Assembly: GCA_028715985.1 (NCBI GenBank)
Contig: JAQUQR010000010.1
Coordinates: 1-33,785 of the forward strand
DNA length: 33,785 nucleotides
DNA from: Methanocellales archaeon
GTDB taxonomy: Archaea; Halobacteriota; UBA148
Direction: 5' to 3'
The position numbers and the translations under genes were made by a program. Below the pieces are notes generated by a model that did no database searches, was not told the origin of the DNA, and was given only the letters and a program-made list of their open reading frames with translations. Shown in pieces: positions 13,283-31,177 of this stretch. The first letter of the stretch is position 1; each line of letters starts with the position of its first letter.

Positions 13283-13285
13283 TTT

Positions 13286-13749: not shown

Positions 13750-13785
13750 CCTTAAACCCATTGATTGGTGAAAGTGGTAACAAAC

Positions 13786-14151
13786 ATGAGACCAAAAATC
13801 ATAGGAATCGGGGTTTTAATAGTTATCTCGATTGTTTTGATCGCCTGGTTTGGTTTTATGTCTCCTGGAGACACGATAAAGACCAAAAAGGGTGCTACAT
13901 TTTCTGTATCTTTAGAGTCAAATCCGACCACTGGCTATAGTTGGCAACCACAATTTGACTCTAACTACGTTCAATTGGTCGATAGTAGCTATGTCCCAAG
14001 TCAACCAAATCTTCTCGGAGGCAGTGGTAAGGAGACGTTTGAGTTTCTTGCTATGAGTTCAGGAACAACCGAAATAACGTTCTCTTATGCGAGGCCCTGG
14101 GAGTCCCAACCACCCCTGGAGACCAGGGTTTTTAAGGTAGTAATCAAATGA
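13786..14151 (+). CDS. Chagasin-like cysteine protease inhibitor (family I42), membrane-anchored
   Basis: 121 residues: an N-terminal hydrophobic segment (about 5-24) acts as a signal anchor or uncleaved signal and is followed by a chagasin fold. All three inhibitor loops are visible: NPTTGYSW at 46-53, the Gly-rich GGSGKE at 78-83, and RPWE at 103-106. In chagasin these loops plug the active site of papain-like proteases. The domain lies outside the membrane, so it may guard against extracellular or envelope proteases. The ATG at 13786 is preferred over in-frame TTG/GTG codons upstream on promoter grounds. No protease gene is adjacent. Confidence 0.88.
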   Translation: MRPKIIGIGVLIVISIVLIAWFGFMSPGDTIKTKKGATFSVSLESNPTTGYSWQPQFDSNYVQLVDSSYVPSQPNLLGGSGKETFEFLAMSSGTTEITFSYARPWESQPPLETRVFKVVIK

Positions 14152-14369
14152 TTTTTGGATGATCAGATTATTATAAAGGAGTTATTCCAAGAAGTTGGAT
14201 GGGGCAGGGGATTTTGAGTCGAATTTACTGGTAAATGTCTGGAAAGGGGTTTTAGCTCGATTTTTAATTTACATGGATCGTATCACTGTCATGCCATATC
14301 ATTTAAATTTTTCTATTTAGCTATTCTGATTCCATATGTCGCTTTTTTGGCTCTTCTTAGGTATGGCTA

Positions 14370-15428
14370 TCAGCTTTGCTTCTTTCTCTGTTGACTATAA
14401 GGGACATACTGAGAAGGATAGAATGGAACCCCCTTCTTTGGATTGCCTTCGCTCCTCATCTTAGAAAACATTGCTTTTTCTTGGTCCATTGTTAGTCTTT
14501 TATGATTTGAGTAATAATTTCGTCCCTTATCTGTAACCTCCCAAATTCCGTGGGGAGAGTCGTCCTTCAATAATCCCTCATTTATCATAGTGAGTCTCGC
14601 CCATCTTGTATTATTGATCCATTTTATATCTGTTCCAGAAGATATCTTCTCATAATCGGCTTCAGTTAGTCTATGCCTCATCTTAACTTCCACTTTTTCT
14701 AAAACATCTTTGATTCTTCCTCTACCGCCCATTTCAATCAAAGCTTCTAAAATAGGAATACGATATTCTTGCTGGGGAGTTGTTTTACCTTTCACTTTAG
14801 GTTTTGCGGGTAGTCTTTCGGATTCTACTTTATGTTCGACTATAGGCTCATGTTCGACTATAGGCTCAAATAAATAAGCATGACGTCCTACAAAACCCTC
14901 TCTTTCAAATGTCTTGAATTCTAGAATTTTTGCGTTTGGATTAGCTTTATAAATAGACTCCTTTATCTCTTTAGTCTTTTTATCTATTATAATTATAATC
15001 TCGGGTGAAACATCATAAATCAGATCAGAAAGGAAACTTGGGATATCTTTACAATAGTAATCAACCTCTGCTTTTTGTGTATGTTGAAGATTATTTATTT
15101 CTTCACGAATGAATGTGAATATCTTTTTTTGAGTTTGAGGATTTTCAACTCCATTCATAAAATCGATCATTTGTCCAACTATATGTCTTGTGGAGTGAGA
15201 TGAGAGTTCTATTTCTATAATATACCATTTTTTATTTTCAAAATCAATCGAAAAACCATCTGGAATTGAACCTTGGCTAGCGAGAGATTCCATTTTGTGT
15301 TTAGCAAAATATAATGAACTCCTACCAAAAATATCCTTACAATGCCCTACAATAATTTTCTCCAATTCCTCTTCGTTTTTATACTGGTAAAAATTATACT
15401 TCGCGCCATCTATGAGTAGTACTTTCAT
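14370..15428 (-). CDS. Orphan restriction-endonuclease-like protein with Mrr_N winged helix
   Basis: About 352 residues. The N-terminal half has a PD-(D/E)XK-like core: PDGFSIDF then WYIIEIELSSHS, i.e. Asp at about 57 and an E-x-E pair about 15 residues later (numbering from the preferred start). BamHI also uses E-x-E instead of E-x-K. A Pro/Lys linker with a duplicated EPIVEH follows. Residues about 216-306 match the Mrr N-terminal winged helix (PQQEYRIPILEALIEMGGRG through GIWEVTDKGRNYY). The ATG at 15428 is preferred over 15446 because GGGGA lies just before it and a TATA-like CTTATTTAA is 28-38 nt upstream. No methyltransferase is adjacent, so this could be a modification-dependent or repair nuclease. 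Confidence 0.72.
   Translation of the reverse strand: MKVLLIDGAKYNFYQYKNEEELEKIIVGHCKDIFGRSSLYFAKHKMESLASQGSIPDGFSIDFENKKWYIIEIELSSHSTRHIVGQMIDFMNGVENPQTQKKIFTFIREEINNLQHTQKAEVDYYCKDIPSFLSDLIYDVSPEIIIIIDKKTKEIKESIYKANPNAKILEFKTFEREGFVGRHAYLFEPIVEHEPIVEHKVESERLPAKPKVKGKTTPQQEYRIPILEALIEMGGRGRIKDVLEKVEVKMRHRLTEADYEKISSGTDIKWINNTRWARLTMINEGLLKDDSPHGIWEVTDKGRNYYSNHKRLTMDQEKAMFSKMRSEGNPKKGVPFYPSQYVPYSQQRKKQS
14833..14868. repeat. 18-bp in-frame tandem repeat in the nuclease linker
   Basis: TGTTCGACTATAGGCTCA occurs twice in tandem without mismatch (14833-14850 and 14851-14868). It encodes EPIVEH twice in the linker between the nuclease and winged-helix domains. Confidence 0.9.
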
Positions 15429-15473
15429 TATTTCCCCGATCCCCATTTCACTTGTAGTTAAATAAGATTTGCC

Positions 15474-17462
15474 TTATTGTCTTCTTCTGATTAGATATGT
15501 GATCACTAGGAGCCCAACGATTGCGAATGCTGCCTCAAATCCAGGTACACTTGGCTCTTCTGTTGGCAATGGTTGTTCTTCAGGATGCGAAGGTGTTGCT
15601 ACCGGTGTTGGAGTGGGTGTTAATGTGGGTGTTGGTGTGCTGGGGTGCCCGTGTGGTGGGTGCTGGGGTGTTAATGTGGGTGTTAATGTGGGTGTTAATG
15701 TGGGTGTTAATGTGGGTGTTGGTGTGCTGGGGTGCCCGTGTGGTGGGTGCTGGGGTGTTAATGTGGGTGTTAATGTGGGTGTTAATGTGGGTGTTAATGT
15801 GGGTGTTGGTGCCGAACTTGGCTTAAACACATACAATTCATCACCAAAATAGTAATCATCTTCCTCATTTGCGAAAAAAGTAGATGTCGCATAGAGTGTC
15901 AATTCTTTTAAATTTGCAGGCATGTCTCCAATATTTGTCAGTTTTATGTCTGTAAAATCAACACCACCACCCAAATAAAGCCTACTTTCAGTAATTATAT
16001 AGTCGCCTTTTGTATAAGTTGTATTCTTCCAGCAATGATATTCGCCTTCTTCAAATGACTTAACATAATCTCTCCATATATCCTCAGCATCCCATATATA
16101 CTTCGATTCTAACCCCGTCGAATCCTTTGAATCTATGAGATTTGTGAAAATCCTAGATGTGTGCCGATATTTATCCTTGTACCATTGTGCAAGTGCCAAC
16201 GAAGTATAAACCTGCCTCAAATCTAAATAATAGTCACCATGATTCACTTCTTGAACAACCAAAGGAAGTATCATCACTTCTTCCAGCTCCATCGCATAAC
16301 GACCATATTCCTTTGCTGCTTCACTAAGATCCTCTTTACATTCATCGGAAAGAGAAGAATTTTGATTTACAATTTGATAAGTTGAATGTTCATATACCGG
16401 CTCTGATTCTATATTTAATTTTATATCAACAATATAAACTTCATCATCTGTGCCATAAACATCCGTTTTATCTGGAATGATCCAATGCCTAGTCACAGGA
16501 CTGAATAGAACGTTATCAGTGTCTTCTATTTCAGCAGGATGCCTTTTCATACATTCTTCTGCCAATTCTTCTGATTTTTTACCCAATAACTCCCAGAACT
16601 CTTCTCCAATCTCGCTTTCACATGGATTCTCATATTTACAAAAGTCCTTCTTCATCTGAAGGTCTGCTTCAAGCATAATCCTTCCCAAGTCTGTTTTTCT
16701 TAAATCTTTATCCATTATTACATCTGGTTCCCAGGGGTTTAGATTTACCCAAAATTTAGAATCTGGTAGGGTTAAGCCCGTGAAGAATGCATTTATCGAT
16801 AGCTCTGTGGCATCTGCGATGTCTATGATATTATCGCCTTCTTCTGCTCTTTTCGCTTTTAGTACGTAGCTAAAATTTTCTCCATTCTGATCCAAAGATA
16901 GTGAAATATAATTTAATTGAATTGATGAAAAATCTACACCGCCCAAAAAGTCATCATCGAGATCTGGTTTGCTTGGGTTTTCCTGCGGGTCTTTCCAATC
17001 AAGAAACAGACCCATAACCCATTCTGGACAATTTGACGATATAAATTCCCCTGTGTATCCGATATTGTTAGGATCGCCCCCTCCTAGGAGTATGATGTAG
17101 GGATAATTAACATGAAACCAAAGGTCTCTTGCGATGCGTTCTTCAAAGGAGTGTTTCTTAGCGTACCAGTCTGGCGAACTGTCAAAATAGGTCTTATAAT
17201 CTTCAGATCTATATTTTTTTAACCCGTCGATAATAGTGGATTCCGTTATTTCTCTTGCAGTATCTATGCTTATACCACCGTCTCGTTCTATATCAAATAT
17301 CACACATTCTGTATTAGATTCGGCATTAAGCGTAACTTTACTAGGATCATCAGCATCCACCAATACTATGCTACCAAAAACCGACCCAAGCATTAAAACT
17401 ATAACGACAAGTAGTGCCACAATAATTCTCCAACTTTCCCATGCAACCTCTTTTTTTTCCAT
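15474..17462 (-). CDS. PGF-CTERM surface protein with Thr-Pro stalk
   Basis: 662 residues. An N-terminal hydrophobic segment (about 13-32) serves as a signal peptide. A large domain of about 500 residues with several cysteines follows and is not recognised. Residues about 553-630 are a stalk of TPTL repeats interrupted by QHPPHGHPS. The C-terminus is PGFEAAFAIVGLLVITYLIRRRQ: the PGF-CTERM signal (PGF, hydrophobic helix, basic tail), processed by archaeosortase A and replaced by a lipid anchor. The Thr-rich stalk is a likely O-glycosylation region. The protein is therefore displayed on the cell surface. A TATA-like TTTATAAAT lies near 17539-17547. Function unknown. Confidence 0.85.
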   Translation of the reverse strand: MEKKEVAWESWRIIVALLVVIVLMLGSVFGSIVLVDADDPSKVTLNAESNTECVIFDIERDGGISIDTAREITESTIIDGLKKYRSEDYKTYFDSSPDWYAKKHSFEERIARDLWFHVNYPYIILLGGGDPNNIGYTGEFISSNCPEWVMGLFLDWKDPQENPSKPDLDDDFLGGVDFSSIQLNYISLSLDQNGENFSYVLKAKRAEEGDNIIDIADATELSINAFFTGLTLPDSKFWVNLNPWEPDVIMDKDLRKTDLGRIMLEADLQMKKDFCKYENPCESEIGEEFWELLGKKSEELAEECMKRHPAEIEDTDNVLFSPVTRHWIIPDKTDVYGTDDEVYIVDIKLNIESEPVYEHSTYQIVNQNSSLSDECKEDLSEAAKEYGRYAMELEEVMILPLVVQEVNHGDYYLDLRQVYTSLALAQWYKDKYRHTSRIFTNLIDSKDSTGLESKYIWDAEDIWRDYVKSFEEGEYHCWKNTTYTKGDYIITESRLYLGGGVDFTDIKLTNIGDMPANLKELTLYATSTFFANEEDDYYFGDELYVFKPSSAPTPTLTPTLTPTLTPTLTPQHPPHGHPSTPTPTLTPTLTPTLTPTLTPQHPPHGHPSTPTPTLTPTPTPVATPSHPEEQPLPTEEPSVPGFEAAFAIVGLLVITYLIRRRQ
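15627..15811 (-). repeat. 87-bp tandem repeats in the Thr-Pro stalk
   Basis: Units start at 15627 and 15714, with the beginning of a third at 15801; the period is 87 bp or 29 residues. Each unit itself contains 12-bp TPTL-coding repeats plus a QHPPHGHPS block. The nested structure can change stalk length in frame. Confidence 0.9.
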
Positions 17463-18779: not shown

Positions 18780-19592
18780 ATGGCGAAAATAGGTGTCATA
18801 AAACTTGGGAATTTAGGGATCTCTCAGGTCGTTGACTTACTGCTGGACGAGAGAGCTGATAGGGATATAGACGTTCGCACAGCAGGTTCGGGGGCAAAGA
18901 TGGGGGCAGGTGAAGCCGTGGACATGGCCACCTTGATGGACTGGGACCCTGACCTGGTGGTTGTGGTCAGTCCCAACGCCTCACTTCCCGGACCGACCAA
19001 GGCAAGAGAATCCGTTGGCGATAAACCCTGCATCGTCATCTCCGATGCGCCTGCGAAGAAGATTACGGATGAGCTGGCAGAAAAAGGCTTTGGATACATC
19101 CTTCTAAGGGGCGATCCCCTCATTGGCGCAAGGCGAGAGTTCCTCGATCCGGCTGAGATGGCACTCTTTAATTCAGATGTTTTGAAGGTGTTAGCGACAT
19201 GTGGTGCGGCACGCTTGGTCCAGGAAGAACTGGATGCAGCCATCGAGGGCATTCGACAGGGAGACTTGAAGCTACCACACATCATCGCAGGTGCTGAGAC
19301 GGTGGTCGAGAGAGCGAGGTTCTCAAATCCCTATGCCAAGGCAAAGGCAATAGCTGCATACAAGATGGCTGAACTCGTTGCGGAGATGAACGTTCAAACG
19401 TGTTTCGTCATAAAGGAACCTTCCGGATACATTATGATGGGGGCTGCTGCCCACGAGGTTATGAGGGCTGCTGCATTGCTTGCTGACGCTGCAAGGGAAC
19501 TCGAGAAGAGTGGCAACACGGTTTCTCGAAGGCCCCATGCCAGCGCAGGGCAAATCCTGGATAAGTCTACTTTGCTGGAGAAGCCAAGGTGA
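18780..19592 (+). CDS. mtd: F420-dependent methylene-H4MPT dehydrogenase
   Basis: The 270-residue enzyme interconverts methylene- and methenyl-tetrahydromethanopterin using coenzyme F420 as hydride carrier, a core step of methanogenesis and of reverse methanogenesis. The start MAKIGVIKLGNLGISQVVDL, the block RTAGSGAKMGAGEAVD at about 34-49 and DPDLVVVVSPN followed by GPTKARE at about 57-77 are characteristic of Mtd. The length is close to the usual 275-280. No membrane segment is present, and the enzyme is cytosolic. The gene is followed after 3 bp by a zinc-ribbon gene. The corrinoid protein and CODH/ACS genes lie in the next 12 kb, so C1 genes cluster here. Confidence 0.97.
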   Translation: MAKIGVIKLGNLGISQVVDLLLDERADRDIDVRTAGSGAKMGAGEAVDMATLMDWDPDLVVVVSPNASLPGPTKARESVGDKPCIVISDAPAKKITDELAEKGFGYILLRGDPLIGARREFLDPAEMALFNSDVLKVLATCGAARLVQEELDAAIEGIRQGDLKLPHIIAGAETVVERARFSNPYAKAKAIAAYKMAELVAEMNVQTCFVIKEPSGYIMMGAAAHEVMRAAALLADAARELEKSGNTVSRRPHASAGQILDKSTLLEKPR

Positions 19593-19595: not shown

Positions 19596-20117
19596 ATGAA
19601 CAAGTGCCTGACCTGTGATATGATTCACATGCTTGACAAAAGCTATCCTGTCAGAGAGGCAAGACACGGGACGTCATCAGGAAGGTGCGATTGGCATGCT
19701 TGGGATGATGATGGGGTGTGGATTTGCGATGTCTGCGGGAGAGCCCAGTTCGATGAAAACCTAGCCTGGTGCCCCAGACACGACAAATATGTTTGCAGGA
19801 GTTGCGCAGAACATAAAAAAATAGAAGAAAAGTATTGGTTTTGGTCATACTATTTTCTTGTTAAGTGCCCCTCCTGCGGGGAGGAGCACCCCACTCTAAG
19901 CAGGGCAGAGTATCTGGGGGAGCATCCATGGCAGACAAACCCCTATGCATGCAGGGATATGCCGATATGGTATCCCGGGGGCAGAATTCTAACTGAGGTC
20001 CCAAAAAAGAAAATAATTTCATGCCCCTCTTGCAAAAGGCAATTAACGATAAGCAAGGTTGGAGAATATCAGTGTCCCTCATGCCATAACAGGTTCGTCG
20101 TAAAAGGAAAAATTTAA
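19596..20117 (+). CDS. Multi-zinc-ribbon protein co-transcribed with mtd
   Basis: 173 residues with many CxxC knuckles: CLTC at 4-7, CDVC near 46, a further CxRH and CRSC pair near 59-71, CPSC near 91, CPSC near 143 and CPSC near 158. This suggests at least three zinc ribbons, or an iron-sulfur site in some of them. Trp and Tyr residues are unusually frequent. No family name is recognised. The ATG lies three bases after the mtd stop with AGGTGA four bases upstream, so it is translated from the mtd message. A role linked to Mtd or its expression is possible but is only inferred from the operon. Confidence 0.8.
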   Translation: MNKCLTCDMIHMLDKSYPVREARHGTSSGRCDWHAWDDDGVWICDVCGRAQFDENLAWCPRHDKYVCRSCAEHKKIEEKYWFWSYYFLVKCPSCGEEHPTLSRAEYLGEHPWQTNPYACRDMPIWYPGGRILTEVPKKKIISCPSCKRQLTISKVGEYQCPSCHNRFVVKGKI

Positions 20118-20316: not shown

Positions 20317-20949
20317 TTATTTAATCCCCAAAATCTCCTTTGCCTTCACTACCGCTTCTCTGGCGTCTCCGGCATATGCATCCGCACCTATCTCCTCCGC
20401 AAATTTCTGTGTGACCGGCGCGCCACCGACCATTACCTTCACATCATCCCTCAACCGCACACTTTCTAACGCCCTGATGACATCCTTCATCGAAGACAGG
20501 GTGGCGTTGAGCAATGCAGACAACCCCAATATATCTGGTTTTTTTGTCCTGACGATCTCCACGAAGCTATCAGGCGGAACATCTATGCCCACATCGATAA
20601 CCTGAAAACCGGCACCCTCCAGCATCATCGCAACGAGATTCTTGCCGATATCATGTATGTCCCCCTTCACCGTACCTATCGCTATTATCCCCAAGGGTTC
20701 CATGTCGCTTCTGGAAAGCAGGGGTTTCAGTATTTCCAGCGAGGCATGCATAGCCCTTGCAGACATAAGGACTTCTGGAACCGATATCTCTTTCTTTTTA
20801 AATCTTATCCCAACGATGTCCATTCCCGGTATTAGTCCCTTGTTGACGATTGCCTCGGGTTTAACCCCCTGCTCCAAAAACTCTTCAGTTAGCCTTTTCA
20901 CCTCTGGCATATTGCCATCTACAAGGGATTTGGACATCTCGTCTAGCAT
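20317..20949 (-). CDS. Stand-alone corrinoid protein, MtaC/MtbC/MttC type
   Basis: The 210-residue cobalamin-binding methyl carrier has the two-domain build of methanol and methylamine corrinoid proteins. A helical cap covers about 1-85. A Rossmann-like B12 domain covers about 86-208, with GDIHDIGKN at 96-104 (His99 is the lower cobalt ligand), SALLNATLSSMK at about 145-156 and VMVGGAPVT at about 172-180. In family members the carrier takes a methyl group from a substrate methyltransferase and passes it to CoM or tetrahydropterin. No such methyltransferase lies in this window. AGGTGA four bases before the ATG supports the start. It is divergent from a corrinoid reactivase gene 87 bp away. Confidence 0.92.
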   Translation of the reverse strand: MLDEMSKSLVDGNMPEVKRLTEEFLEQGVKPEAIVNKGLIPGMDIVGIRFKKKEISVPEVLMSARAMHASLEILKPLLSRSDMEPLGIIAIGTVKGDIHDIGKNLVAMMLEGAGFQVIDVGIDVPPDSFVEIVRTKKPDILGLSALLNATLSSMKDVIRALESVRLRDDVKVMVGGAPVTQKFAEEIGADAYAGDAREAVVKAKEILGIK

Positions 20950-21005
20950 CTATTCACCTTTATTCACTTGATTGCTAATGACTTTTTCTGAGAAGGACAG
21001 TTAGC

Positions 21006-21012
21006 TTTAAAA
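21006..21012 (+). promoter_or_regulatory. TATA-like element of the reactivase gene
   Basis: TTTAAAA lies about 26 nt before the ATG at 21037, inside the 87-bp divergent region shared with the corrinoid protein gene. Confidence 0.4.
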
Positions 21013-21036
21013 CAGACGCGCTCATCCTATTTAAGG

Positions 21037-22845
21037 ATGGAAATAGTTTTTCAGCCAGATGGGAAGAGAGTTCGGGTGGATAAGGGAACGACCATCATGG
21101 AAGCCGCTGTCACCGCAGGCATTCCTTTGGAGACGGTATGTGGTGGCAAGGGAATCTGTGGCAAATGTAAGGTCAGGCTGATCAAGGGCGATTCTCTGGG
21201 AGGAGATGCCAAAGGGGATCTCGTGTTGGCTTGTCAGACCAAACTAATCAGCGATGCAGTCATAGAGGTTCCAGCAGGTACAAGGCTTCTGGAGCAAAAA
21301 ATACTCGTCGGGGGGGTGGAGAAAAAAATACCTCTCAACCCTAACGTGCGTAAGGTATATCTGAAACTGGCCAAGCCCTCCTTGAGCGATCAAAAATCGG
21401 ATTTGAGCAGAATAACATGCGCTCTAGAAAGGAAGGGCATCGTTTTAGGGAATGTCAGTCTTGACTTCATAAGGCAACTTCCAATCAAGCTCAGGAACTC
21501 AGATTTCAAGGTCACGGTCATATTAATCGGCAATGATCTGGTGGGGATGGAAGAGGGAGATACGACCGACAAAAACTATGGCATTAGCTTCGACATAGGT
21601 ACGACGACCGTTGTTGGTTACCTGGTTGACCTAAATACGGGCAAGGAGATGGCCGTTGCCTCAAGAATGAATCCCCAGGTGGTATATGGGGAGGACGTGG
21701 TATCAAGGATAGATTTTGCCAAGACCGAGGAGGGCCTGAGGGAGCTAAATGACAAGATCATCCAAGCTGTCAATGAGATAATCGATGAAGTCAGCGTTTG
21801 CACGGAAAACATCTATGAGGTAAGCATTGTTGGAAATACCTGCATGCTCCATCTGTTTCTGAACATAACCCCCACGAGCTTGGCCCTCTCGCCGTATGTT
21901 TCCGCTTTCAAGGATCCAGTTAACATAAAAGCAAGTGAGCTGGGGGTAAAGGTCAACGAAAAAGCGAATATACATGTTTTGCCAACCATAGCGGGTTTCG
22001 TTGGTGCCGACACCATTGGCGTATTGCTGGCATCTCAGCTGGATGAGGGAAATGACGTTAGGTTGGCGATAGATATCGGTACCAATGTAGAGATAGCTCT
22101 GGGGTCTAAGGAAAAGGTCATTGCCTGCTCTGCTGCAGCTGGTCCTGCATTTGAAGGGGCAAAAATCCGGCATGGAATGAGGGCTGCTCCGGGAGCGATA
22201 CATAGGGTTGTCATTTCGGATGGCGTTGTCTATGGAAAAACGATCGATAATGCCATGGCGAGAGGCATAACCGGCTCTGGGCTTGTGGATGCCGTAGCTG
22301 AGATGTTGAAGAACCGTATCATTAGCAATAGTGGGAAGATTTCAGATGACCCGGAGATATATGCCTTGTATGGCGACAGGTTGGTTCACGAGGGGGGTGA
22401 GGCTGCGTTCCTCTTGGCTAGAGGCATTACTGTGACACAGGGCGACATCAGAGAGCTTCAACTGGCCAAAGGCGCCATCTATGCTGGTATCAATATATTG
22501 ATGAAAGATCTAGGAATATGTGACATCAAAGAAATACTTCTGGCTGGAGCTTTTGGCACATCACTGCCCAAGGAAAATGCACAGGTGATTGGGCTGATCC
22601 CGGATATACCTCTGGACAGGGTGAAAGACATTGGTAATGCTGCAGGGGTGGGATCTAAGATGGCATTAATATCGAAAAATGAGCGATTAAAGGCAGAACT
22701 CCTGTCTGAAAAAGTGGAATACGTGGAATTATCCGGAAGAAAGGATTTCCAGGATGAGTTCATGGATGCCATGTTCTTCCCGCATTCAAACTTGGATTAC
22801 TTTCCAAACGTTGCTAGGCTTGTCCACTCCACTTCTTTTCGATGA
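21037..22845 (+). CDS. RACo-like corrinoid reactivation ATPase, [2Fe-2S] type
   Basis: 602 residues, close to bacterial RACo (about 630). Residues 1-95 are a plant-type ferredoxin domain with C35-x5-C41-x2-C44-x21-C66 binding [2Fe-2S]. A linker and middle domain follow. From about 181 an ASKHA ATPase fold is seen: FDIGTTTVVGYLVD, then AIDIGTNVEIALGSK at about 344-358, AAGPAFEGAKIR at about 370-381, GITGSGLVDAV at about 410-420 and LLAGAFGTSLPKENA at about 504-518. Proteins of this kind use ATP to return inactive Co(II) corrinoid to Co(I). The clients here could be CdhDE, the adjacent corrinoid protein, or both. The typical methanogen enzyme RamA has 4Fe-4S sites instead. The last 32 bases overlap cdhE tail to tail. 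Confidence 0.88.
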   Translation: MEIVFQPDGKRVRVDKGTTIMEAAVTAGIPLETVCGGKGICGKCKVRLIKGDSLGGDAKGDLVLACQTKLISDAVIEVPAGTRLLEQKILVGGVEKKIPLNPNVRKVYLKLAKPSLSDQKSDLSRITCALERKGIVLGNVSLDFIRQLPIKLRNSDFKVTVILIGNDLVGMEEGDTTDKNYGISFDIGTTTVVGYLVDLNTGKEMAVASRMNPQVVYGEDVVSRIDFAKTEEGLRELNDKIIQAVNEIIDEVSVCTENIYEVSIVGNTCMLHLFLNITPTSLALSPYVSAFKDPVNIKASELGVKVNEKANIHVLPTIAGFVGADTIGVLLASQLDEGNDVRLAIDIGTNVEIALGSKEKVIACSAAAGPAFEGAKIRHGMRAAPGAIHRVVISDGVVYGKTIDNAMARGITGSGLVDAVAEMLKNRIISNSGKISDDPEIYALYGDRLVHEGGEAAFLLARGITVTQGDIRELQLAKGAIYAGINILMKDLGICDIKEILLAGAFGTSLPKENAQVIGLIPDIPLDRVKDIGNAAGVGSKMALISKNERLKAELLSEKVEYVELSGRKDFQDEFMDAMFFPHSNLDYFPNVARLVHSTSFR

Positions 22846-24202
22846 AATCCTCTATGCCTGAGGAATCCCTGGGGCCGACCAAAACCTCCCAGCCGCTCTG
22901 AATCTCCAGGTCCCCACTGATTCGGGAAGAAAATCCAGGTATTATGATCTTTCTGTGTATAACCTCTTTCTCGACTCCACTGTTTTTGATGGCTTCCTTT
23001 GCCTTGAAAGCATCCAATTTCCCACCTGCGACCGAGGCTTCAACGCCCAATCCCTCCGTATCGATCACCAAAAGATAGCAATCGACGCCTGCCGACTCCA
23101 GGTCTGATGCGACAGTGTAATAAGTTAGAGCAAAGTTCGTGGTCATAAGGACAGGTGCATTCTCATCAGGATCGCCAAACCTCCTTAACCCTGCTTCGAC
23201 TGCAACCGGCTTTCTCGGATCAGTGTAGATGTTTTGTCTCAAGGTGATGACCGGGAGCAAAGCCCATATTTCTGGCGTATGGAGAATTATGAGGTCAGCA
23301 TATTTGTCTATCATGATCGCAGCGATCATGGCCTCTTTGGAAGCATCTCCCCCACTCAGCCAGACGGTGGCCGGCACTCCCAACAAAGGATACCCGATAT
23401 CCCCGTTCCAAATGGCTGCCCTCCTCGATGCCACAAAATTACCAAATGTGTTCGCAAGGTATTTACCCTCCACATGTGATCCCGGGTCGAGGACTATATC
23501 CTCTGCTCCCACGGATTCCAGGGCTTTTACCACCGACTTTAGTTCTGCCATATCGTCATCGGCAAAAGCCACCACGGGACAATTGTATTTCACAGCCAGC
23601 CTTCCGACCTCTTCCCACGTATCCCTGGTCGCTGCATAGATTAGCGGCCTCTCATGTCCCGCGACCTTTAAACCCTCCTCCAGCACAGAGGGAGTCCAAG
23701 AGCATAGTATCAGCGGTTTTTTCGCCTCACCCAACACTTTTGATACGCATTGGGCAAATCTATCTGGGTCGTTTGATGTTGATCGAATGGCAATAATATC
23801 CAGTTTTAGTTCTTCGCCTATTCGCTTGAAGCAAAAATCGTTAACATATCTGACCCTCTCTACTAACTCCTCATCATTCATCTCATCATGAACATCCAAG
23901 GCAATGGCGGTCTTGTTGAAATATGTAAGTTCATGTCGAAAGATGATCTCCTCCCCGCCAGTCTTGACCGCCTTATCTCCAACGCCGACGATCACCTCTT
24001 TAACGCCCGGAGCAAGCATTTCTTTCAGGCTATGGTATTTCTCAGCAAAATTCGGTTGCTTCAGCGTAGGGCAGTCCTCAAGCTTGACGGCTCTTTCTAT
24101 GAGTTGCGAAGCAAAAGCCATGCAAGTTTTTTCGCCGCACTCTCCGCAGTTTGTTTTCGGCAAGTAGTTGTAGATGTCCAGCGGTCCGATCTTCTTGGCC
24201 AT
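22814..24202 (-). CDS. cdhE: CODH/ACS corrinoid iron-sulfur protein large subunit (gamma)
   Basis: The 462-residue gamma subunit carries a methyl group on cobalamin between tetrahydromethanopterin and the A cluster of acetyl-CoA synthase. The N-terminal C19-x2-C22-x4-C27-x16-C44 motif (TNCGECGEKTC ... DCP) binds [4Fe-4S] used for low-potential reduction of cobalt. A TIM-barrel methyltransferase-like region follows. The C-terminal part, from about residue 325, is the cobalamin-binding domain. Length is normal. It is the last gene of the operon, seven bases after cdhD, and its ribosome binding site (AGGTAGGAT) lies over the cdhD stop. It overlaps the reactivase gene on the other strand. Confidence 0.97.
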   Translation of the reverse strand: MAKKIGPLDIYNYLPKTNCGECGEKTCMAFASQLIERAVKLEDCPTLKQPNFAEKYHSLKEMLAPGVKEVIVGVGDKAVKTGGEEIIFRHELTYFNKTAIALDVHDEMNDEELVERVRYVNDFCFKRIGEELKLDIIAIRSTSNDPDRFAQCVSKVLGEAKKPLILCSWTPSVLEEGLKVAGHERPLIYAATRDTWEEVGRLAVKYNCPVVAFADDDMAELKSVVKALESVGAEDIVLDPGSHVEGKYLANTFGNFVASRRAAIWNGDIGYPLLGVPATVWLSGGDASKEAMIAAIMIDKYADLIILHTPEIWALLPVITLRQNIYTDPRKPVAVEAGLRRFGDPDENAPVLMTTNFALTYYTVASDLESAGVDCYLLVIDTEGLGVEASVAGGKLDAFKAKEAIKNSGVEKEVIHRKIIIPGFSSRISGDLEIQSGWEVLVGPRDSSGIEDFIEKKWSGQA

Positions 24203-24209: not shown

Positions 24210-25361
24210 CTACCTCATGCCTATCCAGTCTTTGATGTCCAGCGCCCCCGCCTCTTTGAAGCCACATAAACATTTGATGATATCCCTAAATAATTGCATG
24301 GCAGTGGGGTTCATCATCATGAACAGATCGCTCCCGGCAAGACATAACGTCAGTGCAGTAACAGCCTCCCATAAAGGGCCCCTTTTTTCACGGTCGCCCC
24401 ATTCCGGGTTTTCCATCCACGCCTCTCTGGCGCCCCAGGCATTGGTCGTCCCAGAGGCTATGGGCATTTGTAAATCTTTGTCTCCTTTGAGGGCTGCCAA
24501 CCTGATCCTCTCCATGACGGTGAATGAATACTCCAATCCATAACCCAAAGCTGCAGTGGTTGGATCCATAATCATGTCCTCCCTTTTTATGCCCGCATCC
24601 ATCAAATATTTGTTCAATGTTTTCTGGTCATTGATGTCCAGGGATGTCCAAGACAACACGACATGGCCATAATCTAAGCATGCTTTTGCAATCCTCTTGT
24701 AATCCAGGCTCATACTTGCGGAGTTGATCACGCACCGCTCTCCAGCCGCTGCTTCTGCAGCCTTTTCTAAGACTTCGGGGTCTTTGTCCGGATTGCCGGA
24801 GCCGCCTATCATTATCGGCACCTTCACCGCCTGAAGGACATCTTCTACGGTCTTGGCGGCTTCCCGGGCGGAAGTGTCCTTTATGGCGGGATCGGTGCTT
24901 ATCAAATGTATGGTGACCATTTCTGCACCATACTTCTTTACGCATCTCTTAGCCCATTCTGCCGGGTCTTCCAGTACATCCTCAAAGTGCCTCCTGACCG
25001 GTCCTGCCAGATGTATCTTCGTGTCGAAGACATCAAAGGCGATCACAGGCTCGTTTGGATTGAGCGCCTCAAAATTATAGAAGGGCATCGTTCTCTCCCC
25101 GCCGACCTTTATAATGTTTTTTCTGGTCCCTCCGTTGGCTTTTGTCGCACCCAGCTCCACTTCAAGGACCTCACCAGGGAAATTTGCTAGTGGGATCTCA
25201 AAATCCAGATCGCGATATTCCGCTTTTTTGATAGATGGCTTAGATGCTATCCTAGGGAGTATGAGCCCAAGTTCACCAGCGATCATGTCTATGTTCTCAA
25301 GCTCTATTTCCTCTACCTTCTCCAACATCTTTATTAGCTCTGTTAGATCAAGCGCGTTCAT
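24210..25361 (-). CDS. cdhD: CODH/ACS corrinoid iron-sulfur protein small subunit (delta)
   Basis: About 383 residues. The delta subunit pairs with CdhE to form the corrinoid methyl carrier. It has a TIM-barrel-like body with ATKANGGTRKNIIKVGGE, AFDVFDTKIHLAGP, MIGGSGNPDKDPEVLEKAAE and MDPTTAALGYGLEYSFTVME, all typical of CdhD. It ends in a short Gly/Ala tail (FKEAGALDIKDWIGMR). GTG at 25364 and ATG at 25361 are both possible starts with the AAGGAG site that lies over the cooC stop. It is shorter than the roughly 430 residues of some methanogen CdhD proteins, apparently by differences at the N-terminus. Confidence 0.96.
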   Translation of the reverse strand: MNALDLTELIKMLEKVEEIELENIDMIAGELGLILPRIASKPSIKKAEYRDLDFEIPLANFPGEVLEVELGATKANGGTRKNIIKVGGERTMPFYNFEALNPNEPVIAFDVFDTKIHLAGPVRRHFEDVLEDPAEWAKRCVKKYGAEMVTIHLISTDPAIKDTSAREAAKTVEDVLQAVKVPIMIGGSGNPDKDPEVLEKAAEAAAGERCVINSASMSLDYKRIAKACLDYGHVVLSWTSLDINDQKTLNKYLMDAGIKREDMIMDPTTAALGYGLEYSFTVMERIRLAALKGDKDLQMPIASGTTNAWGAREAWMENPEWGDREKRGPLWEAVTALTLCLAGSDLFMMMNPTAMQLFRDIIKCLCGFKEAGALDIKDWIGMR

Positions 25362-25374
25362 CACTTTCTGCTCC

Positions 25375-26133
25375 TTACACGAGTCTTATCTTTTTTGCTA
25401 TCTCGTCCACAGCCCTTACCGCCGGGGAGCTTTCAGGTAAATCTAGCAGGGATTTGCCCACAAGGTTGTATTCTGTTATGTCCCTCTCTTCCGGTATCAC
25501 GCCCGCGAACTCCAGTCCGGTGGATTTGACTTTTTCTGATATCGATTTTTCATGTGAAGGATCAACCCTATTCACCACGAGATACAAATGTTTAAAGTCT
25601 ATCCCCAGCTCTTTGGACAGATTTTTAATCCTCTCTGCAGTCTTGAAGCCATGTATTGACATGTCAGTCACCACGATCATGTCATCCACGCCCTGTGTGG
25701 TCCTTCTGCTTAAATGCTCCAATCCCGCTTCAGCATCGATGATGGTGTAATCATAGCTCTGAGGTAAGGAATCTATAATGTCTCGAAGCATGTGGTTTAC
25801 CGCACAATAACACCCGGGTCCTTCTGGCTTTCCCATAACGATCACATCAAAGCTGGGCATCTCGGCCGTTATTTCAAAAATCTTGGCCTCCAACCATGCC
25901 ATCTTGGAGTAATCGGGAGGGAATTCAGATTGCTTTGATATCAAATCCTCCCTTATATCCCCCAGGCTTTTTTCCACTGATACGCCCAGAGCATCAGGCA
26001 AATTGGAATCAGGGTCTGCATCTATTGCCAAGATGCTTTTTTTACCAGACCTAACCAATTTTCTGATTAGCAACGAAGCAAGTATCGTCTTTCCTACCCC
26101 TCCCTTCCCAGAAACTGCGATTATCTTTCCCAT
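25375..26133 (-). CDS. cooC: CooC-type nickel-insertion ATPase
   Basis: The 252-residue MinD/CooC-family ATPase is thought to load nickel into CODH or ACS. The deviant Walker A GKGGVGKT spans 9-16, the switch block AIDADPDSN 36-44, and the CxC metal-binding pair is C108/C110 in GPGCYCAVNHM. It sits between cdhC (9 bp upstream) and cdhD (11 bp downstream), the same place as in Methanosarcina cdh operons, which supports a role in maturing this complex. A second CooC-type gene opens the operon. Confidence 0.95.
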   Translation of the reverse strand: MGKIIAVSGKGGVGKTILASLLIRKLVRSGKKSILAIDADPDSNLPDALGVSVEKSLGDIREDLISKQSEFPPDYSKMAWLEAKIFEITAEMPSFDVIVMGKPEGPGCYCAVNHMLRDIIDSLPQSYDYTIIDAEAGLEHLSRRTTQGVDDMIVVTDMSIHGFKTAERIKNLSKELGIDFKHLYLVVNRVDPSHEKSISEKVKSTGLEFAGVIPEERDITEYNLVGKSLLDLPESSPAVRAVDEIAKKIRLV

Positions 26134-26142: not shown

Positions 26143-27513
26143 TCATTTCGCTTTTTTGATGATCACTTTCTCAGCATGGATCTTTGCATTTTTCAGGATT
26201 ATCGTTATTCCTCCCGAAGGGGTACCCGAAATGGTGCCAACCGGCATGACCTCAAGAGCCTGAGCTTCTATGACCTCTGGAGGTGCCTCAACCCACCTTT
26301 CAACTACCGGGTGCCCTTTTTCCCTCAAAAATTCTTTTAGGGCTATGATGTCTGCGGCGTCATTTTCTGTCGCGATCTTGTCGTACAACTCTGCTGGTAT
26401 GTAATCTTTCAGCTTCTCTTTCACTTCACTTGGAAGCCAGATTATCCGATTCCATCCTCCGTCTACCTGCAAGAACTTGGGCGACCTCATGTATTCGAAT
26501 GAGATGCCATGGAAGCCATCTACCTGTCTTCCACCTCCTGTGGAATCTGCGATGCCTCCGAACGTTAATCCGCTTGGCGTCTGTCCTCTGAAATCCCTGT
26601 GGACAACTCCCAGCCCATCGCATTCTGGAACGTAAAATGTGGTAATCTCAAAGCAGCCACAGGATGTATGGGGGTAGCCGAAGGCTGTATACAGCTGCAC
26701 TCTGTTTATCTCTCCAAGCGACTTTTCGGAAACGATTTTGTTTATGCCCTCATATTCGCCTTTCCAGTCATCCAGGCATTCTCCCTTGGGTATTTCGAAT
26801 ACCGGGCCCTTTGGATCCACCTTCGCAGCCGCTCTTCCGTCAAACCAGCTTATGGCTCCGCAATTGGCATATCTTTGAGCGGAGATTACGCAGATATGGG
26901 AGGGTGCAAAGGATTGGCAAAGGGTGCAACCGTAAAAAACATCGACGTCATCATCCGTCATGCCTCTTGCCCTTGCATCTCTCCCCTCGTATATCTCGAG
27001 TGCTTCCTGAAACTTTTTCTTCACTTCTTTCGGGTCGGTGATGAATGTTATTTGTATCTTTTCGATTATCGCCATCTCGCTTTTGAACAACCTCTGGAGG
27101 GCTTTTCCGATTACCTCCAGGTTTAATCCTTTCTTAACTGCTGTTTTATCCAAACGCAACCAGATGCTATCCCTCTGGTTTAGATGCATGAAGCCTTCGA
27201 TGTAATTGCAGAAATCGTGTATGCGTCGCTCCATGACCCCTTCCATCTCCACTTCCAGCTTCTCGCCTGAAACCTCGATGTAGATGCCAAAGGGAAAAGA
27301 GCCCCCTTCTTCCAGGTCCGGGACGTCTGGACCAACTAGGGTGATTTTTCCGTCCTCTACCTCTTCTGGGCCTTTAACCCTCAAGAGTTCGAATTTTTCT
27401 TTTACGTTGGGCCCCCCCAACTCCACATGCATTTGGGGTTTTCGAACCCTTTCCCCTTCATGGGCTAACCCTACATCAACAGGGAGGTCTGCAAACATAC
27501 CTGATGTGCTCAT
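26143..27513 (-). CDS. cdhC: Acetyl-CoA synthase, A-cluster subunit (beta)
   Basis: The 456-residue subunit makes or cleaves the C-C and C-S bonds of acetyl-CoA at the Ni-Ni-[4Fe-4S] A cluster. Cluster cysteines are C196, C199, C208 and C218 (CTLC...HIC...ANCG) and the C285-G-C287 pair (HTSCGCFE). Their spacing matches the archaeal beta subunit. It lacks the large N-terminal domain of bacterial AcsB, as usual for archaea. The first codon overlaps the cdhB stop by 4 bp (ATGA), implying translational coupling. The C-terminal 60 residues are less conserved. Confidence 0.97.
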   Translation of the reverse strand: MSTSGMFADLPVDVGLAHEGERVRKPQMHVELGGPNVKEKFELLRVKGPEEVEDGKITLVGPDVPDLEEGGSFPFGIYIEVSGEKLEVEMEGVMERRIHDFCNYIEGFMHLNQRDSIWLRLDKTAVKKGLNLEVIGKALQRLFKSEMAIIEKIQITFITDPKEVKKKFQEALEIYEGRDARARGMTDDDVDVFYGCTLCQSFAPSHICVISAQRYANCGAISWFDGRAAAKVDPKGPVFEIPKGECLDDWKGEYEGINKIVSEKSLGEINRVQLYTAFGYPHTSCGCFEITTFYVPECDGLGVVHRDFRGQTPSGLTFGGIADSTGGGRQVDGFHGISFEYMRSPKFLQVDGGWNRIIWLPSEVKEKLKDYIPAELYDKIATENDAADIIALKEFLREKGHPVVERWVEAPPEVIEAQALEVMPVGTISGTPSGGITIILKNAKIHAEKVIIKKAK

Positions 27514-28058
27514 TTATTCTCCATCTCCTGTGCAATTATGGTTAAATATCCACTCCACTCCTCGATTGAAAGATTCGGGAAGGACCAGTTGCAGTGTGGC
27601 TGATAGTATCTATCTAGGGACACCGTCTTCAGATGGTCGAAAGCAAAGGACTTGAGCCCTGCCTCAATCACAAAACCCACATAATAGGTCATTCCGAGGA
27701 TCAAAGCTAAGTCGTGGGGCTCATCCTCACCAGAGACGCTCCACGTTGGGTCCGTGAGCCGATTGCCGATATCCATGGAAGTCATCGAAGCAGCTGGCTT
27801 AAAGCCCCTCTTCAGAAACTCTGCCATCGCATGGGCTGTCGTAACCACAGGAATATCGGCGGCTCTTGCAATTCGAATGATTTGATCTATCGGCTTTTTG
27901 CCCTCCAAGTCTATCTCGGCTGCTTCGTGCCCCACAATGAAAATAGGTTTTTTCGCCTTCTTCAACAGGATAGAGACCATCTCGGGCTTTTTGATCACCG
28001 CAGCTTTTACGGGTCCTGGAACTTCGTATCTCTGCCAAGGTTCAGCTGCCATTGCCAT
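27510..28058 (-). CDS. cdhB: CODH/ACS epsilon subunit
   Basis: The 182-residue epsilon subunit binds the alpha subunit in the CODH component and may help electron transfer to FAD or ferredoxin. It is a Rossmann-like DHS domain: KKAKKPIFIVGHEAAEID near 32-50, VTTAHAMAEFLKRGF near 76-90, LALILGMTYYVG near 123-134 and SLDRYYQPHCNWSFPNLS near 150-167. A second in-frame ATG two codons later is an equally possible start. It overlaps cdhA by 17 bp and cdhC by 4 bp. Confidence 0.95.
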   Translation of the reverse strand: MAMAAEPWQRYEVPGPVKAAVIKKPEMVSILLKKAKKPIFIVGHEAAEIDLEGKKPIDQIIRIARAADIPVVTTAHAMAEFLKRGFKPAASMTSMDIGNRLTDPTWSVSGEDEPHDLALILGMTYYVGFVIEAGLKSFAFDHLKTVSLDRYYQPHCNWSFPNLSIEEWSGYLTIIAQEMENK

Positions 28059-30405
28059 CCCCCTTCTTTCTTACAAGTCTTGGTAATAGCGTTGGATCCG
28101 GAGCAGGGACTTCGCTCTCTTTCCAGCCCTTTTCCTTCAAGATCTCCAATATTTCATCCTTCATGGTTATGGGGATGTCTGCCATGGTACGTACAAATAA
28201 CTGAATGTCATCTGGCATGGCTCCATAAAAGCGTTTATGCAGGTCTATATAATGGTTTAGCTTTATTGATCTGCCCTTCGTCGTGTCGTTAGGCCTAATG
28301 CAAAGCTTTGGTATTAAAGTCATAGCTTCCTCCTTCGTCTCCACGGAGATGAAGAGGTGCTCAGGTGCCGGACCCGTATACACGCGCTTCCCTGTGCGAG
28401 CGTCGATGACATACCAATTCTCCTCTTTATCCTTCCTTCCCAGCAATGCTCGCCTATACTTGGAGCCGTGCGGTCCTACGATTACAGGTATGCCCAGCCT
28501 CCAGAAGCCGCTGGCTATGGAAGAGGCTTTTTGAGACATGGCTCCCCAGGATATGCCCACAGCACCCACCCGATTGTGTATGTAATCAGCAATTTCCTCA
28601 TAATTCGAGTTAAGCTTCCGCTTGGCGAAAATGCTTGCAATTTTGATGGCAGCTCCTGAGATGTGAGGGTTGGAAACGCAGGAGCCACAGTTTACGAGAC
28701 CTCCCGCATCAAATGCACCTGAATAGGCTTCATAGAGGCTAAGTCCGTCCTCGTTTTTGTACATACCTATGTTCATAGCTGCGCAGCCGGTGGTGGTCAC
28801 GATGAATCGCCTTTTTAGGAATTCTTCGATCATGATGGCGTTATCCTTCCAACTGCCGGGATAATTGGAGCAGCCGACGATTCCGATCACGCCTGGTATC
28901 TCTCCCATGACTATTGGGCCGCCCACCCTTCTTATTTCCGTATCCGATATGGCGCCCCTGCCCACTCTGACCTTGAATCTCTCCTCCTTAATTTTTGACC
29001 TGGAGGCGCCTATTATGATGGAGTGGAGCTTCAGCTCGTTGGGGCAAACCCCCTCCCCCTCGCAACGTCCACAGCCTATACAAGACTCGTATAAGTCTGA
29101 TAGCGGCTGAAGGTTTCCTTTGGCTGCCGCTTCCATGGCTTCCGGAAGGGGCAAATAATTCGGGCAAACCCGTTGACAGCTGAGGCATTTTGTACATTTC
29201 GTAGCATATTCAATTATCTCAGATTCTTCTGGGATGATGCCTGACTTTTTCCGCTTGGGGAATACACCCATGGCAACCCTGACAGCTACCTCTCCAGCCT
29301 TATCCGAGTCTAGGATGACTACGCCCGGGCTTCTGCCCTCCACCATGTCGCTCACTATTTCATCTGTGGGGTCTTCGGTGCGGTTCGGCAGCCCTTGGAA
29401 ATTCTTGTAATGTGTTGAGATGAGGGGTGCCTTGACCTTCTTGGCTTCGTCCAGTATGTCGGCACGGATGCATTGCTCATCAACCACTATCACGTCTGCT
29501 ATACCCGATCTGACGAAACGCAGTTGATGGGAGAGGGGGCCAGCTATCTTCGCCTTATTCGTATATCTGGTTAAATCAAGTGCAGTGCAGCATATGCCAG
29601 CGAGCTCTATGCTATCCTCCAACCCGCCATCCTCCATGTAGTCAAATATCGCGGCTGCCGGAGGGACGTTGTGCCCTATCACCAAAATGACAGGCTTAGT
29701 TATATCAATGCTCCCCATCCCCACGTCCACCATTGATGCTTCAGGGTCCGCCTTTGGGAAATTTAAGGCGGATATTTGCGCCAAATCGCAGATCTCCATG
29801 CCAACATGATCGATCATGCCTGCATGAAACGCCTTTGACTCGAAATCTATGTTATCCCCCTCCTGTCCCGTATGGCAACAGGAAAGCAAGTGGGTTATCT
29901 CTTTTTCGACGTAATCGAGAACATCCTCGAGGTCACCAAGTGTCCTGGGCTTTATGCCAGTGACCAGGCGGGTGTGCGGTGCCTCCACAAGCACGGATAA
30001 TCCACCAACGTCAAGCGGATAATCGCTGCCGAATTTGCTTACCAGCTCCTCTACCATGTGCCTGCCATGGCCTGCATGGGTTGCGGCCCCTATGGCACAT
30101 GAAAGCAGAACTATTCTCGATTGCTGCGCTGCCATGTCCAGTCCGCAGGCACCCTTTTTTCCCTTGCTCAGATCGCACTTCCCCATGGTGCACAGGCAAC
30201 AGAGATCGCATAACGGCAAGTAGAATGGCTTATACTTGTTCAAAAGTATGCGATCCCAATCTCTGAATGTTGAGATGTCAGGCATGGGTGTGGGCCCAGG
30301 GGCTTCTTCCCATTCTTCATAAAAGGCTCCAACGGTGGCCTCCAGACCCGTTATCTTAAAGATGTCGCTTTCCAGCTCATCGACCTTGAATCTTGCTTTT
30401 TTCAC
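28042..30405 (-). CDS. cdhA: Carbon monoxide dehydrogenase alpha subunit
   Basis: 787 residues. It catalyses CO2/CO interconversion at the Ni-Fe-S C cluster. The N-terminal cysteine set C66, C69, C70, C72, C77 and C87 holds the B/D clusters. Two ferredoxin-type motifs, CTKCLSCQRVCP (404-415) and CIGCGRCEGEGVCP (442-455), mark the archaeal form. C-cluster ligands include His in GHNVPPA (about 245), Cys in DEQCIRAD (312), Cys in TTGCAAMN (about 544) and NCGSC (about 577). The start is GTG with a strong AAGGAG upstream, overlapping the preceding CooC-like gene by 29 bp. Length is normal for CdhA. Confidence 0.97.
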   Translation of the reverse strand: MKKARFKVDELESDIFKITGLEATVGAFYEEWEEAPGPTPMPDISTFRDWDRILLNKYKPFYLPLCDLCCLCTMGKCDLSKGKKGACGLDMAAQQSRIVLLSCAIGAATHAGHGRHMVEELVSKFGSDYPLDVGGLSVLVEAPHTRLVTGIKPRTLGDLEDVLDYVEKEITHLLSCCHTGQEGDNIDFESKAFHAGMIDHVGMEICDLAQISALNFPKADPEASMVDVGMGSIDITKPVILVIGHNVPPAAAIFDYMEDGGLEDSIELAGICCTALDLTRYTNKAKIAGPLSHQLRFVRSGIADVIVVDEQCIRADILDEAKKVKAPLISTHYKNFQGLPNRTEDPTDEIVSDMVEGRSPGVVILDSDKAGEVAVRVAMGVFPKRKKSGIIPEESEIIEYATKCTKCLSCQRVCPNYLPLPEAMEAAAKGNLQPLSDLYESCIGCGRCEGEGVCPNELKLHSIIIGASRSKIKEERFKVRVGRGAISDTEIRRVGGPIVMGEIPGVIGIVGCSNYPGSWKDNAIMIEEFLKRRFIVTTTGCAAMNIGMYKNEDGLSLYEAYSGAFDAGGLVNCGSCVSNPHISGAAIKIASIFAKRKLNSNYEEIADYIHNRVGAVGISWGAMSQKASSIASGFWRLGIPVIVGPHGSKYRRALLGRKDKEENWYVIDARTGKRVYTGPAPEHLFISVETKEEAMTLIPKLCIRPNDTTKGRSIKLNHYIDLHKRFYGAMPDDIQLFVRTMADIPITMKDEILEILKEKGWKESEVPAPDPTLLPRLVRKKGDGNGS

Positions 30406-31177
30406 AAAATATCTCCTTTACAAGTCTGTTTTTGATTTCCGAGATAGCTTTGAAGGCTTTCGATGTCGGGAAATTAACCAAAGCCTCCCCGCCCATCTCA
30501 GCCTCCCTGACTTTATAATCGAAGGGAATGATGCCCAAGATGTTATCAAAATTCTCGTTTATAAACTTTTCTTCCTCCTCATCTGCAACCTTATTTCCGA
30601 TCACGTAAGTTTTTTCCAACCCGATATCCCCTGCCAGATTCATTATTTTTTTAACGACCTCCATCGAGTTGGGCGTCGCTTCAGTCACGGCTATCAATGC
30701 ATCCGCATATTTTGCAGTTCCCCTGCCCAAATGCTCGACACCCGCTTCCATGTCCACTATCACATCCTGCTCTCCCGAGAGCACCTGCTTTAGAAAGGTT
30801 TTTAACATCACGTTGGCCGGGCATGTACAGCCGGAGCCCCCCTTTTTGACGGTCCCCATCAAAATGAACTTTACGCCATCCGGTGCATCCATCCATAACT
30901 TCCGGGGCAAGTCGGAAACCTTCGGGTTTAGTTTGAATACCGCTCCATAAACATCCGGGGATGCACCGGTCCTCTCCTCGATTAGGTCTCCCATTTCTGC
31001 CAGGGGCACCAATTCCCTAACTTTCCCCTTGTCTATCCCCAGGGTTGAGTGGAGATTCTGGGCAGGGTCTGCGTCTATGGCTATCACGTCAAAGCCATCT
31101 CTGGCAAGCATCCTGGCTAAGGTTCCAGCAAAAGTCGTCTTTCCGACTCCTCCTTTTCCAGTGATGCATATTTTCAT
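30377..31177 (-). CDS. Second CooC-type ATPase, first gene of the cdh operon
   Basis: 266 residues, same family as the CooC between cdhC and cdhD but clearly diverged. Walker A is GKGGVGKT at 7-14, the switch is AIDADPAQN at 33-41, and the metal pair is C117/C119 in GSGCTCPANVM. It overlaps cdhA by 29 bp and so is translated with it. The canonical archaeal operon carries one CooC. Having one directly before the CODH gene and one directly after the ACS gene suggests each may mature a different nickel site (C cluster and A cluster), which is inference. It could also be a general MinD-like ATPase. The ATG has GGAG about ten bases upstream. Confidence 0.92.
   Translation of the reverse strand: MKICITGKGGVGKTTFAGTLARMLARDGFDVIAIDADPAQNLHSTLGIDKGKVRELVPLAEMGDLIEERTGASPDVYGAVFKLNPKVSDLPRKLWMDAPDGVKFILMGTVKKGGSGCTCPANVMLKTFLKQVLSGEQDVIVDMEAGVEHLGRGTAKYADALIAVTEATPNSMEVVKKIMNLAGDIGLEKTYVIGNKVADEEEEKFINENFDNILGIIPFDYKVREAEMGGEALVNFPTSKAFKAISEIKNRLVKEIFCEKSKIQGR

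Follow-up and report, generated by a model that had tools for sequence, protein, structure and literature searches.

The window, by which we mean the whole stretch of 33,785 nucleotides that was analysed, carries a gene for a corrinoid methyl-carrier protein among the features collected in Table 1. The initial annotation had placed this gene between mtd and the cdh genes; both are where it had them, save that it overlooked the carrier's immediate neighbor, a gene for a RACo-type reductive activator of corrinoid proteins, which intervenes before cdhE.

Table 1. Features around the carrier gene, in window coordinates.
Feature	Position	Strand	Basis
mtd, F420-dependent methylene-H4MPT dehydrogenase	18780..19592	+	NF002162, 390 bits
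Zinc-ribbon-like protein rich in cysteine, 173 aa, next gene after mtd	19596..20117	+	Conservation in family
Corrinoid methyl-carrier protein (MtgC/MtvC-like), 210 aa	20317..20949	-	PF02607 + PF02310, NCBIfam, PDB, motifs
Divergent intergenic region carrier/RACo, 87 bp	20950..21036	.	Conserved A/T-rich blocks, alignment of 5 genomes
RACo-type reductive activator of corrinoid proteins	21037..22845	+	PF00111, PF17650, PF17651, PF14574 over gathering scores
cdhE, large corrinoid iron-sulfur subunit of CODH/ACS	22814..24202	-	NF003195, 590.8 bits
cdhD, small subunit of corrinoid iron-sulfur protein	24210..25364	-	TIGR00381, 530.8 bits
CooC-like P-loop ATPase 1	25375..26133	-	MinD/ParA-type matches under cut-off; name inferred from place
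cdhC, acetyl-CoA synthase subunit	26143..27513	-	TIGR00316, 637 bits
cdhB	27510..28058	-	TIGR00315, 115.7 bits
cdhA, CO dehydrogenase subunit	28042..30405	-	TIGR00314, 1157 bits
CooC-like P-loop ATPase 2	30377..31177	-	CbiA, 62.7 bits; name inferred from place

The zinc-ribbon-like protein is 81-93% identical in all four other genomes of the family and has no NCBIfam match, while its Pfam matches are all under cut-off; an AlphaFold model built on a 5-row alignment is unusable (mean pLDDT 48.0). Farther off, the window holds metK and a deaminase-kind amidohydrolase (8826-10013 and 521-1825; PRK06038 over cut-off), the amidohydrolase perhaps being an adenosylhomocysteine or deoxyadenosine deaminase. 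Two simple-repeat stretches (15469-15852 and 33280-33765, the second at the contig end) read as TPTLTP-like linkers or GVGV-like frames. Rfam at gathering scores returned two tRNAs over the window and nothing else, and the 20 matching records of a phage collection, each below 60% identity, added nothing.

The Carrier Protein and Its RACo Neighbor

The two-domain build and histidine ligand recognized in the initial annotation are borne out: the helical cap (PF02607) spans residues 2-75 at 78.9 bits against a Pfam cut-off of 23, the B12-binding domain (PF02310) spans residues 89-201 at 103.7 bits against 32.1, and D97-x-H99-x-x-G is intact. The motif is complete, with D97-I-H99-D-I-G102, S144-A-L and G175-G176 occurring in one copy each; D-x-H-x-x-G, S-x-L and GG form what we take to be the cobalamin motif of MT-I-cognate corrinoid proteins. 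Build and motif match the MtaC/MtbC/MttC/MtgC/MtvC class, and no curated NCBIfam subfamily cut-off is reached, the top model being MtgC_2 (243 bits, cut-off 370), with TIGR02370, MtbC and MtaC also under theirs (204 of 215, 192 of 350 and 121 of 420 bits, respectively). Among PDB sequences the top match is 1y80 (240 bits), presumably the Moorella methanol-induced corrinoid protein, followed by the trimethylamine corrinoid protein 7xcn (180 bits). The source genome (G000) has four PF02310 matches, and the carrier is the sole MtaC-type corrinoid protein found there; the other three matches (one under cut-off) lie in frames of 488-494 aa which, judged by eye, are probably B12-radical SAM proteins. 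An AlphaFold model of the carrier from a 5-row alignment is unusable (mean pLDDT 36.9). Going by domains, motif and conservation, we consider the protein a real, conserved corrinoid methyl carrier that is predicted to be loaded with cobalamin.

RACo is the carrier's direct neighbor on the opposite strand, head-to-head across 87 bp in all five genomes of the family, and the stretch between the two genes is a putative promoter region. At its other end, the 3' end of RACo overlaps that of cdhE by 32 bp. Four Pfam families give the RACo domains in the order Fer2, linker, middle and ASKHA C-terminal domain, the Fer2 part holding Cys 35/41/44/66. In acetogens, RACo of the AcsV type serves the corrinoid iron-sulfur protein (CoFeSP). 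The window protein resembles acetogen RACo/AcsV in its domain series and in lying near CoFeSP genes, and AcsV (CoFeSP regeneration) is its best NCBIfam model, but it stays under the AcsV cut-off (433 versus 800 bits) and stands head-to-head with a second corrinoid protein.

Host Lineage and Conservation

The source genome is a draft of 1.5 Mb in 19 contigs, 96.4% complete. It was compared with the other members of its order, 11 genomes in all: five of the window's own family (f1) and six of two sister families (f2 and f3). The initial annotation had assumed an ANME-1-type setting and had argued from a missing Mer that a corrinoid shuttle could link pterin-bound and other methyl pools. An ANME-1 assignment is ruled out: McrA (PF02249) was found in none of the 11 genomes, Mer (TIGR03555) exceeds its curated cut-off in all 11, and the closest named records of the carrier, 83-94% identical, are 'Methanocellaceae archaeon UBA148' and three labeled 'Methanocellales archaeon'. 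With Mer over cut-off throughout the order, the missing-Mer argument falls. The host is regarded as an archaeon that does not make methane.

The carrier is found in every f1 genome, with 83-94% identity in the four other than the source, and in none of the six sister-family genomes (63-97% complete). More widely, 65 of 100 genomes have some carrier match, with identities outside f1 of 32-54% among the matches listed. The order mtd, zinc ribbon, carrier, RACo, cdhE, cdhD, cooC, cdhC, cdhB, cdhA, cooC is identical in 5/5 f1 genomes, so that the comparison of gene order in relatives, which the initial annotation had proposed, finds the carrier beside mtd and CODH/ACS in every one. The gene is under purifying selection, with dN/dS of 0.12-0.16 (NG86) or 0.14-0.22 (YN00) in 10/10 pairs. 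That the carrier is a relic of lost methylotrophy, as might be read from the four methyltransferase families without a match in f1 (below), is extremely unlikely in view of these values (0.12-0.22 overall), the intact motif and the conserved intergenic region.

Search for a Partner Methyltransferase

The initial annotation had reported no MtaB, MtbB, MttB or MtsA-like gene in 33 kb, and this stands: none of the 25 window proteins scanned (22 by Pfam, 3 by NCBIfam only) contains such a domain, and Pfam shows no MtmB gene in the window either. The look across whole genomes that it had proposed was made for MttB, MtaB, URO-D and MetH-type proteins, MtmB and MtbB lying outside its scope, and each of the four gave 0/5 in f1. 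MttB and MtaB are without a match in all 11 genomes of the order, as is the MetH-type homocysteine domain PF02574, which removes a split MetH. URO-D (MtsA/MtvB/MtaA/MtbA type) has four weak matches in f2/f3, one over cut-off, and these overlap genes matched by PF01717. Positive controls for MttB, MtaB and URO-D gave their matches in Methanosarcina acetivorans. MetE-type PF01717 was found in 0/5 f1 genomes and in 5/6 of f2/f3.

No known methyltransferase type adjoins the carrier in any f1 genome. The initial annotation had named, as evidence against its reading, a methanol or methylamine methyltransferase that is cognate to the carrier and clusters with it in relatives; as far as the search reached, the five f1 genomes show none. 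An AcsE-like pterin methyltransferase as partner is unsupported by the PF00809 matches listed for the five f1 genomes, which comprise DHPS frames (one checked), three frames of 478-483 aa and, identified by their position, the CdhD proteins of four genomes; G004 also has CdhD by gene order, yet it is not among the matches listed. These results support a carrier without a recognizable partner nearby or, for the families searched, genome-wide.

MtgC, MtvC and the 1y80 protein have MtgB, MtvB or MtaB partners. The window carrier shares their two-domain build, but its genomes have no MttB-, URO-D- or MtaB-type match and it misses the NCBIfam cut-offs. Corrinoid proteins (CoP) without a cognate MT-I are already known from Bathyarchaeia: in the portion of the text available for the Bathy-6 group, they are described as mtrH-flanked, and functions in catabolism as well as anabolism are weighed for them (PMC7886697). 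As far as that portion goes, the window carrier resembles the Bathy-6 CoP in being an MtbC/MttC-like carrier of an archaeon with the Wood-Ljungdahl pathway and no MtbB or MttB beside it, but differs in being flanked by RACo beside cdh, with MtrH next to an MtrA of its own. Titles and abstract openings of the literature searched contained no mention of a carrier-RACo-cdh arrangement, which is a weak negative.

A Second Case and Control Loci

A comparable arrangement occurs in another Halobacteriota family, where locus L102 of genome G065 (4903-16201) reads cdhA-B-C-D-E, carrier, DUF166, RACo and CooC-like ATPase. Its carrier lies directly behind cdhE and is 40% identical to the window carrier, and its RACo is on the other strand, after the DUF166 protein. 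In a tree of 36 rows the window carrier is placed among bacterial ones, with support that is not strong (91/87), and the G065 carrier, a row flagged for its long branch and deviating composition, falls among those of family f8 (99/96). It is this separate position of the G065 carrier that makes it suggestive that the association of carrier, RACo and CODH/ACS arose twice. The f8 carrier that was inspected precedes an ABCE1/RLI-like gene, and its 16-kb contig contains neither a RACo nor a cdh match. Family f8 shows a carrier-like gene before an ABCE1/RLI-like gene in L104 (G056) and L033 (G024), where the portion viewed lacks RACo and cdh matches.

As a control, 25 carrier loci (L010-L034) from the same phylum, spanning 3.6 kb each, were considered. 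In 15 of them the carrier has a methyltransferase gene of known type as its neighbor (MtbB 6, MttB 3, URO-D 6; counts from clusters, with representatives checked), while RACo matches occur in three and a cdh match in one, that of G065. The link to CODH/ACS is therefore not general, and a carrier without a methyltransferase neighbor is a minority state among these loci, yet not a rare one. Some known kind of MT-I might still have been missed, either MtmB or MtbB, or a gene lying in the gaps of the assemblies, which are drafts; in families of the phylum other than f1, MtbB genes do adjoin carriers. We regard this as very unlikely, as a gap would need to recur in five genomes and none of these has such a gene adjacent to the carrier, unlike the 15 phylum loci.

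The carrier adjoins cdhE and RACo in two lineages, and this could also be expected of an accessory to CoFeSP, that is, a carrier-like protein that stores cobalamin for CdhDE, delivers it or senses CdhDE, with RACo acting on CdhE; the AcsV model as best match of RACo, a type that serves CoFeSP, points the same way. Such a role is decidedly improbable given that the combination of cap and B12-binding domain is the build of methyl carriers, and that RACo also stands beside a carrier and a URO-D gene in L028 and L029, where the 3.6-kb stretch has no cdh gene.

MtrA-MtrH and the Methionine Synthases

MtrH is present in one copy in 4/5 f1 genomes, the miss being G001 (76% complete). MtrA adjoins it in 4/4 f1 loci, and the MtrA-MtrH pair also occurs in 5/6 sister-family genomes. 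The f1 MtrA proteins are short, at about 200 aa (PF04208 checked for one), and no 19-residue stretch has a mean hydropathy above 1.2 in the four sequences considered (three f1, one f2); a membrane anchor is therefore unlikely. In G002 and G003, mtrA-mtrH follows the cdh cluster and cooC at a distance of 2-3 kb. The pair of the source genome lies near the end of its contig C7 (L095), which breaks off within its final gene, judged by eye to be replication factor C-like; taken with the arrangement in G002 and G003, this indicates that C7 and the window contig may adjoin.

The carrier could accordingly be thought to work with MtrH and not with CdhDE, methyl groups passing from an MT-I through the carrier and MtrH to H4MPT. 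Besides the proximity in G002 and G003, the G003 MtrH scores 212 bits, under the cut-off of 550, against MtgA, which is the methyltransferase in the MtgC system, and CoP-MtrH couples are proposed for Bathyarchaeia, with Bathy-6 as precedent, in the part of the source available (PMC7886697). This route is nevertheless fairly improbable: in f1, MtrH has a corrinoid protein of its own in the adjoining MtrA, and the sister-family genomes with the MtrA-MtrH pair are all without a carrier.

For methionine synthesis, NF004712 was used to find MesC, since PF01717 misses it and is silent in Methanosarcina acetivorans; the NF004712 control is over cut-off in one of the two archaea listed (Sulfolobus acidocaldarius, Methanosarcina acetivorans). 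One protein matches at 366-387 bits in each of the five f1 genomes, one of them over the cut-off of 387, and is taken for a MesC-type methionine synthase, the sole methionine synthase found in f1 on the sequence evidence. Compared by eye and unaligned, it has 2 of 7 homocysteine- and zinc-binding positions exactly and the other 5 within 3 places, as these are given in the part of PMC7857596 to hand. The MesC gene lies behind an HhH-GPD gene and one further gene in 5/5 f1 genomes. In G005, homologues of the HhH-GPD gene and its follower adjoin the mesA row described next.

In the sister families, mtrA-mtrH, DUF2114 and mesA stand in a row in 5/5 loci with MtrH (L097-L101, from G009, G008, G005, G006 and G010, respectively); four of the five rows also include a conserved gene, about 345 aa long and lacking a Pfam match, and mesA of G010 is truncated at a contig end. 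DUF2114 was verified by Pfam in G005 and G004, and two MesA-like proteins tested pass PRK00957, presumably the MesA model, at 333 and 329 bits (cut-off 258). No sister-family genome that carries the row has an McrA match. Within f1, G004 (L096) keeps the row with one extra gene; mesA is missing, DUF2114 abuts the gene normally found after mesA, and a MesC-like gene is encoded elsewhere in the genome.

According to the parts of the two papers available, MesA was placed in methanogens only, with MtrA predicted as donor (Price et al., PMC7857596), and the methanogen donor was held likely to be a corrinoid protein of unknown identity (Chadwick et al., PMC9012536). The mtrA-mtrH-DUF2114-mesA cluster fits the MtrA-donor prediction and, judging by its encoded proteins, extends MesA to genomes without an McrA match. 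It suggests that MtrAH may be the module that supplies methionine synthase with methyl groups in organisms other than methanogens, where its role has been called unclear and, hypothetically, one of funneling methyl groups into the Wood-Ljungdahl pathway (PMC9635834, as far as available).

The carrier itself might serve an anabolic outflow, taking methyl groups from CdhDE or methyl-H4MPT and passing them to MesC. MesC is the only methionine synthase found in f1 (PF01717 and PF02574 both 0/5), its binding positions are largely in place by eye (2/7 exact, the rest within 3 places), and the available text of PMC7857596 holds that core methionine synthases presumably depend on methyl-corrinoid proteins, CoFeSP (CdhE) being the donor predicted for MesC and other corrinoid donors being speculated upon. 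We consider this outflow unlikely: mesC of the source genome is on contig C3, which has no PF02310 match, and the carrier would be dispensable with CdhE, the predicted donor, and MtrA-MtrH at hand. Relative to the MesC-CoFeSP system as predicted there, the f1 genomes are alike in holding a MesC-like protein and CODH/ACS together, but differ in having two further corrinoid proteins, MtrA and the carrier.

Proposed Role of the Carrier

The reading we favor, at slightly less than even probability, is that of a working methyl carrier, reactivated by RACo, which would exchange methyl groups with the CODH/ACS branch and have as its other partner a methyltransferase not yet recognized. The carrier's cobalamin would alternate between Co(I) and CH3-Co(III). 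Should oxidation to Co(II) occur, RACo would reduce the cobalamin again, with electrons entering through the 2Fe-2S part and ATP driving the ASKHA domain. CdhE/CdhD and methyl-H4MPT would give or receive methyl groups at one end of the exchange, and a methyltransferase of a family not recognized as such would stand at the opposite end, methyl inflow being likelier than outflow. Characterized carriers with the cap and B12-domain build serve a substrate methyltransferase, and it is for this reason that an unrecognized MT-I feeding in seems likeliest, with MesC as a reasonable alternative at this end. The observations at hand are the domains, the ligand motif, purifying selection, adjacency in five genomes and four methyltransferase families without a match; from the sequences we infer cobalamin loading, RACo action on the carrier, the CdhDE partnership and the direction of flow.

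Against a carrier linked to CODH/ACS stand the missing second partner and the chance that RACo acts on CdhE instead of the carrier. CdhDE is also believed to take methyl groups directly from the pterin, so an extra carrier would not be required for CODH/ACS. The initial annotation had speculated on a link between pterin-bound and other methyl pools; for a carrier that sits beside mtd and CODH/ACS in 5/5 genomes this stays the best reading, although the ANME-1 and missing-Mer grounds on which it was proposed are gone. A more far-reaching form of the favored reading, possible but doubtful, is that an MtvC/MtgC-type carrier and RACo would together be a dedicated accessory of archaeal CODH/ACS, evolved independently in two Halobacteriota lineages, by which methyl groups from a still unrecognized enzyme family would move into or out of the CdhDE corrinoid center without a known substrate methyltransferase.

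For the biology of the family, the f1 archaea hold three methyl-corrinoid candidates, CdhE, MtrA and the carrier, against a single methionine synthase found so far; the question of methionine's methyl donor is therefore directly testable in such archaea.
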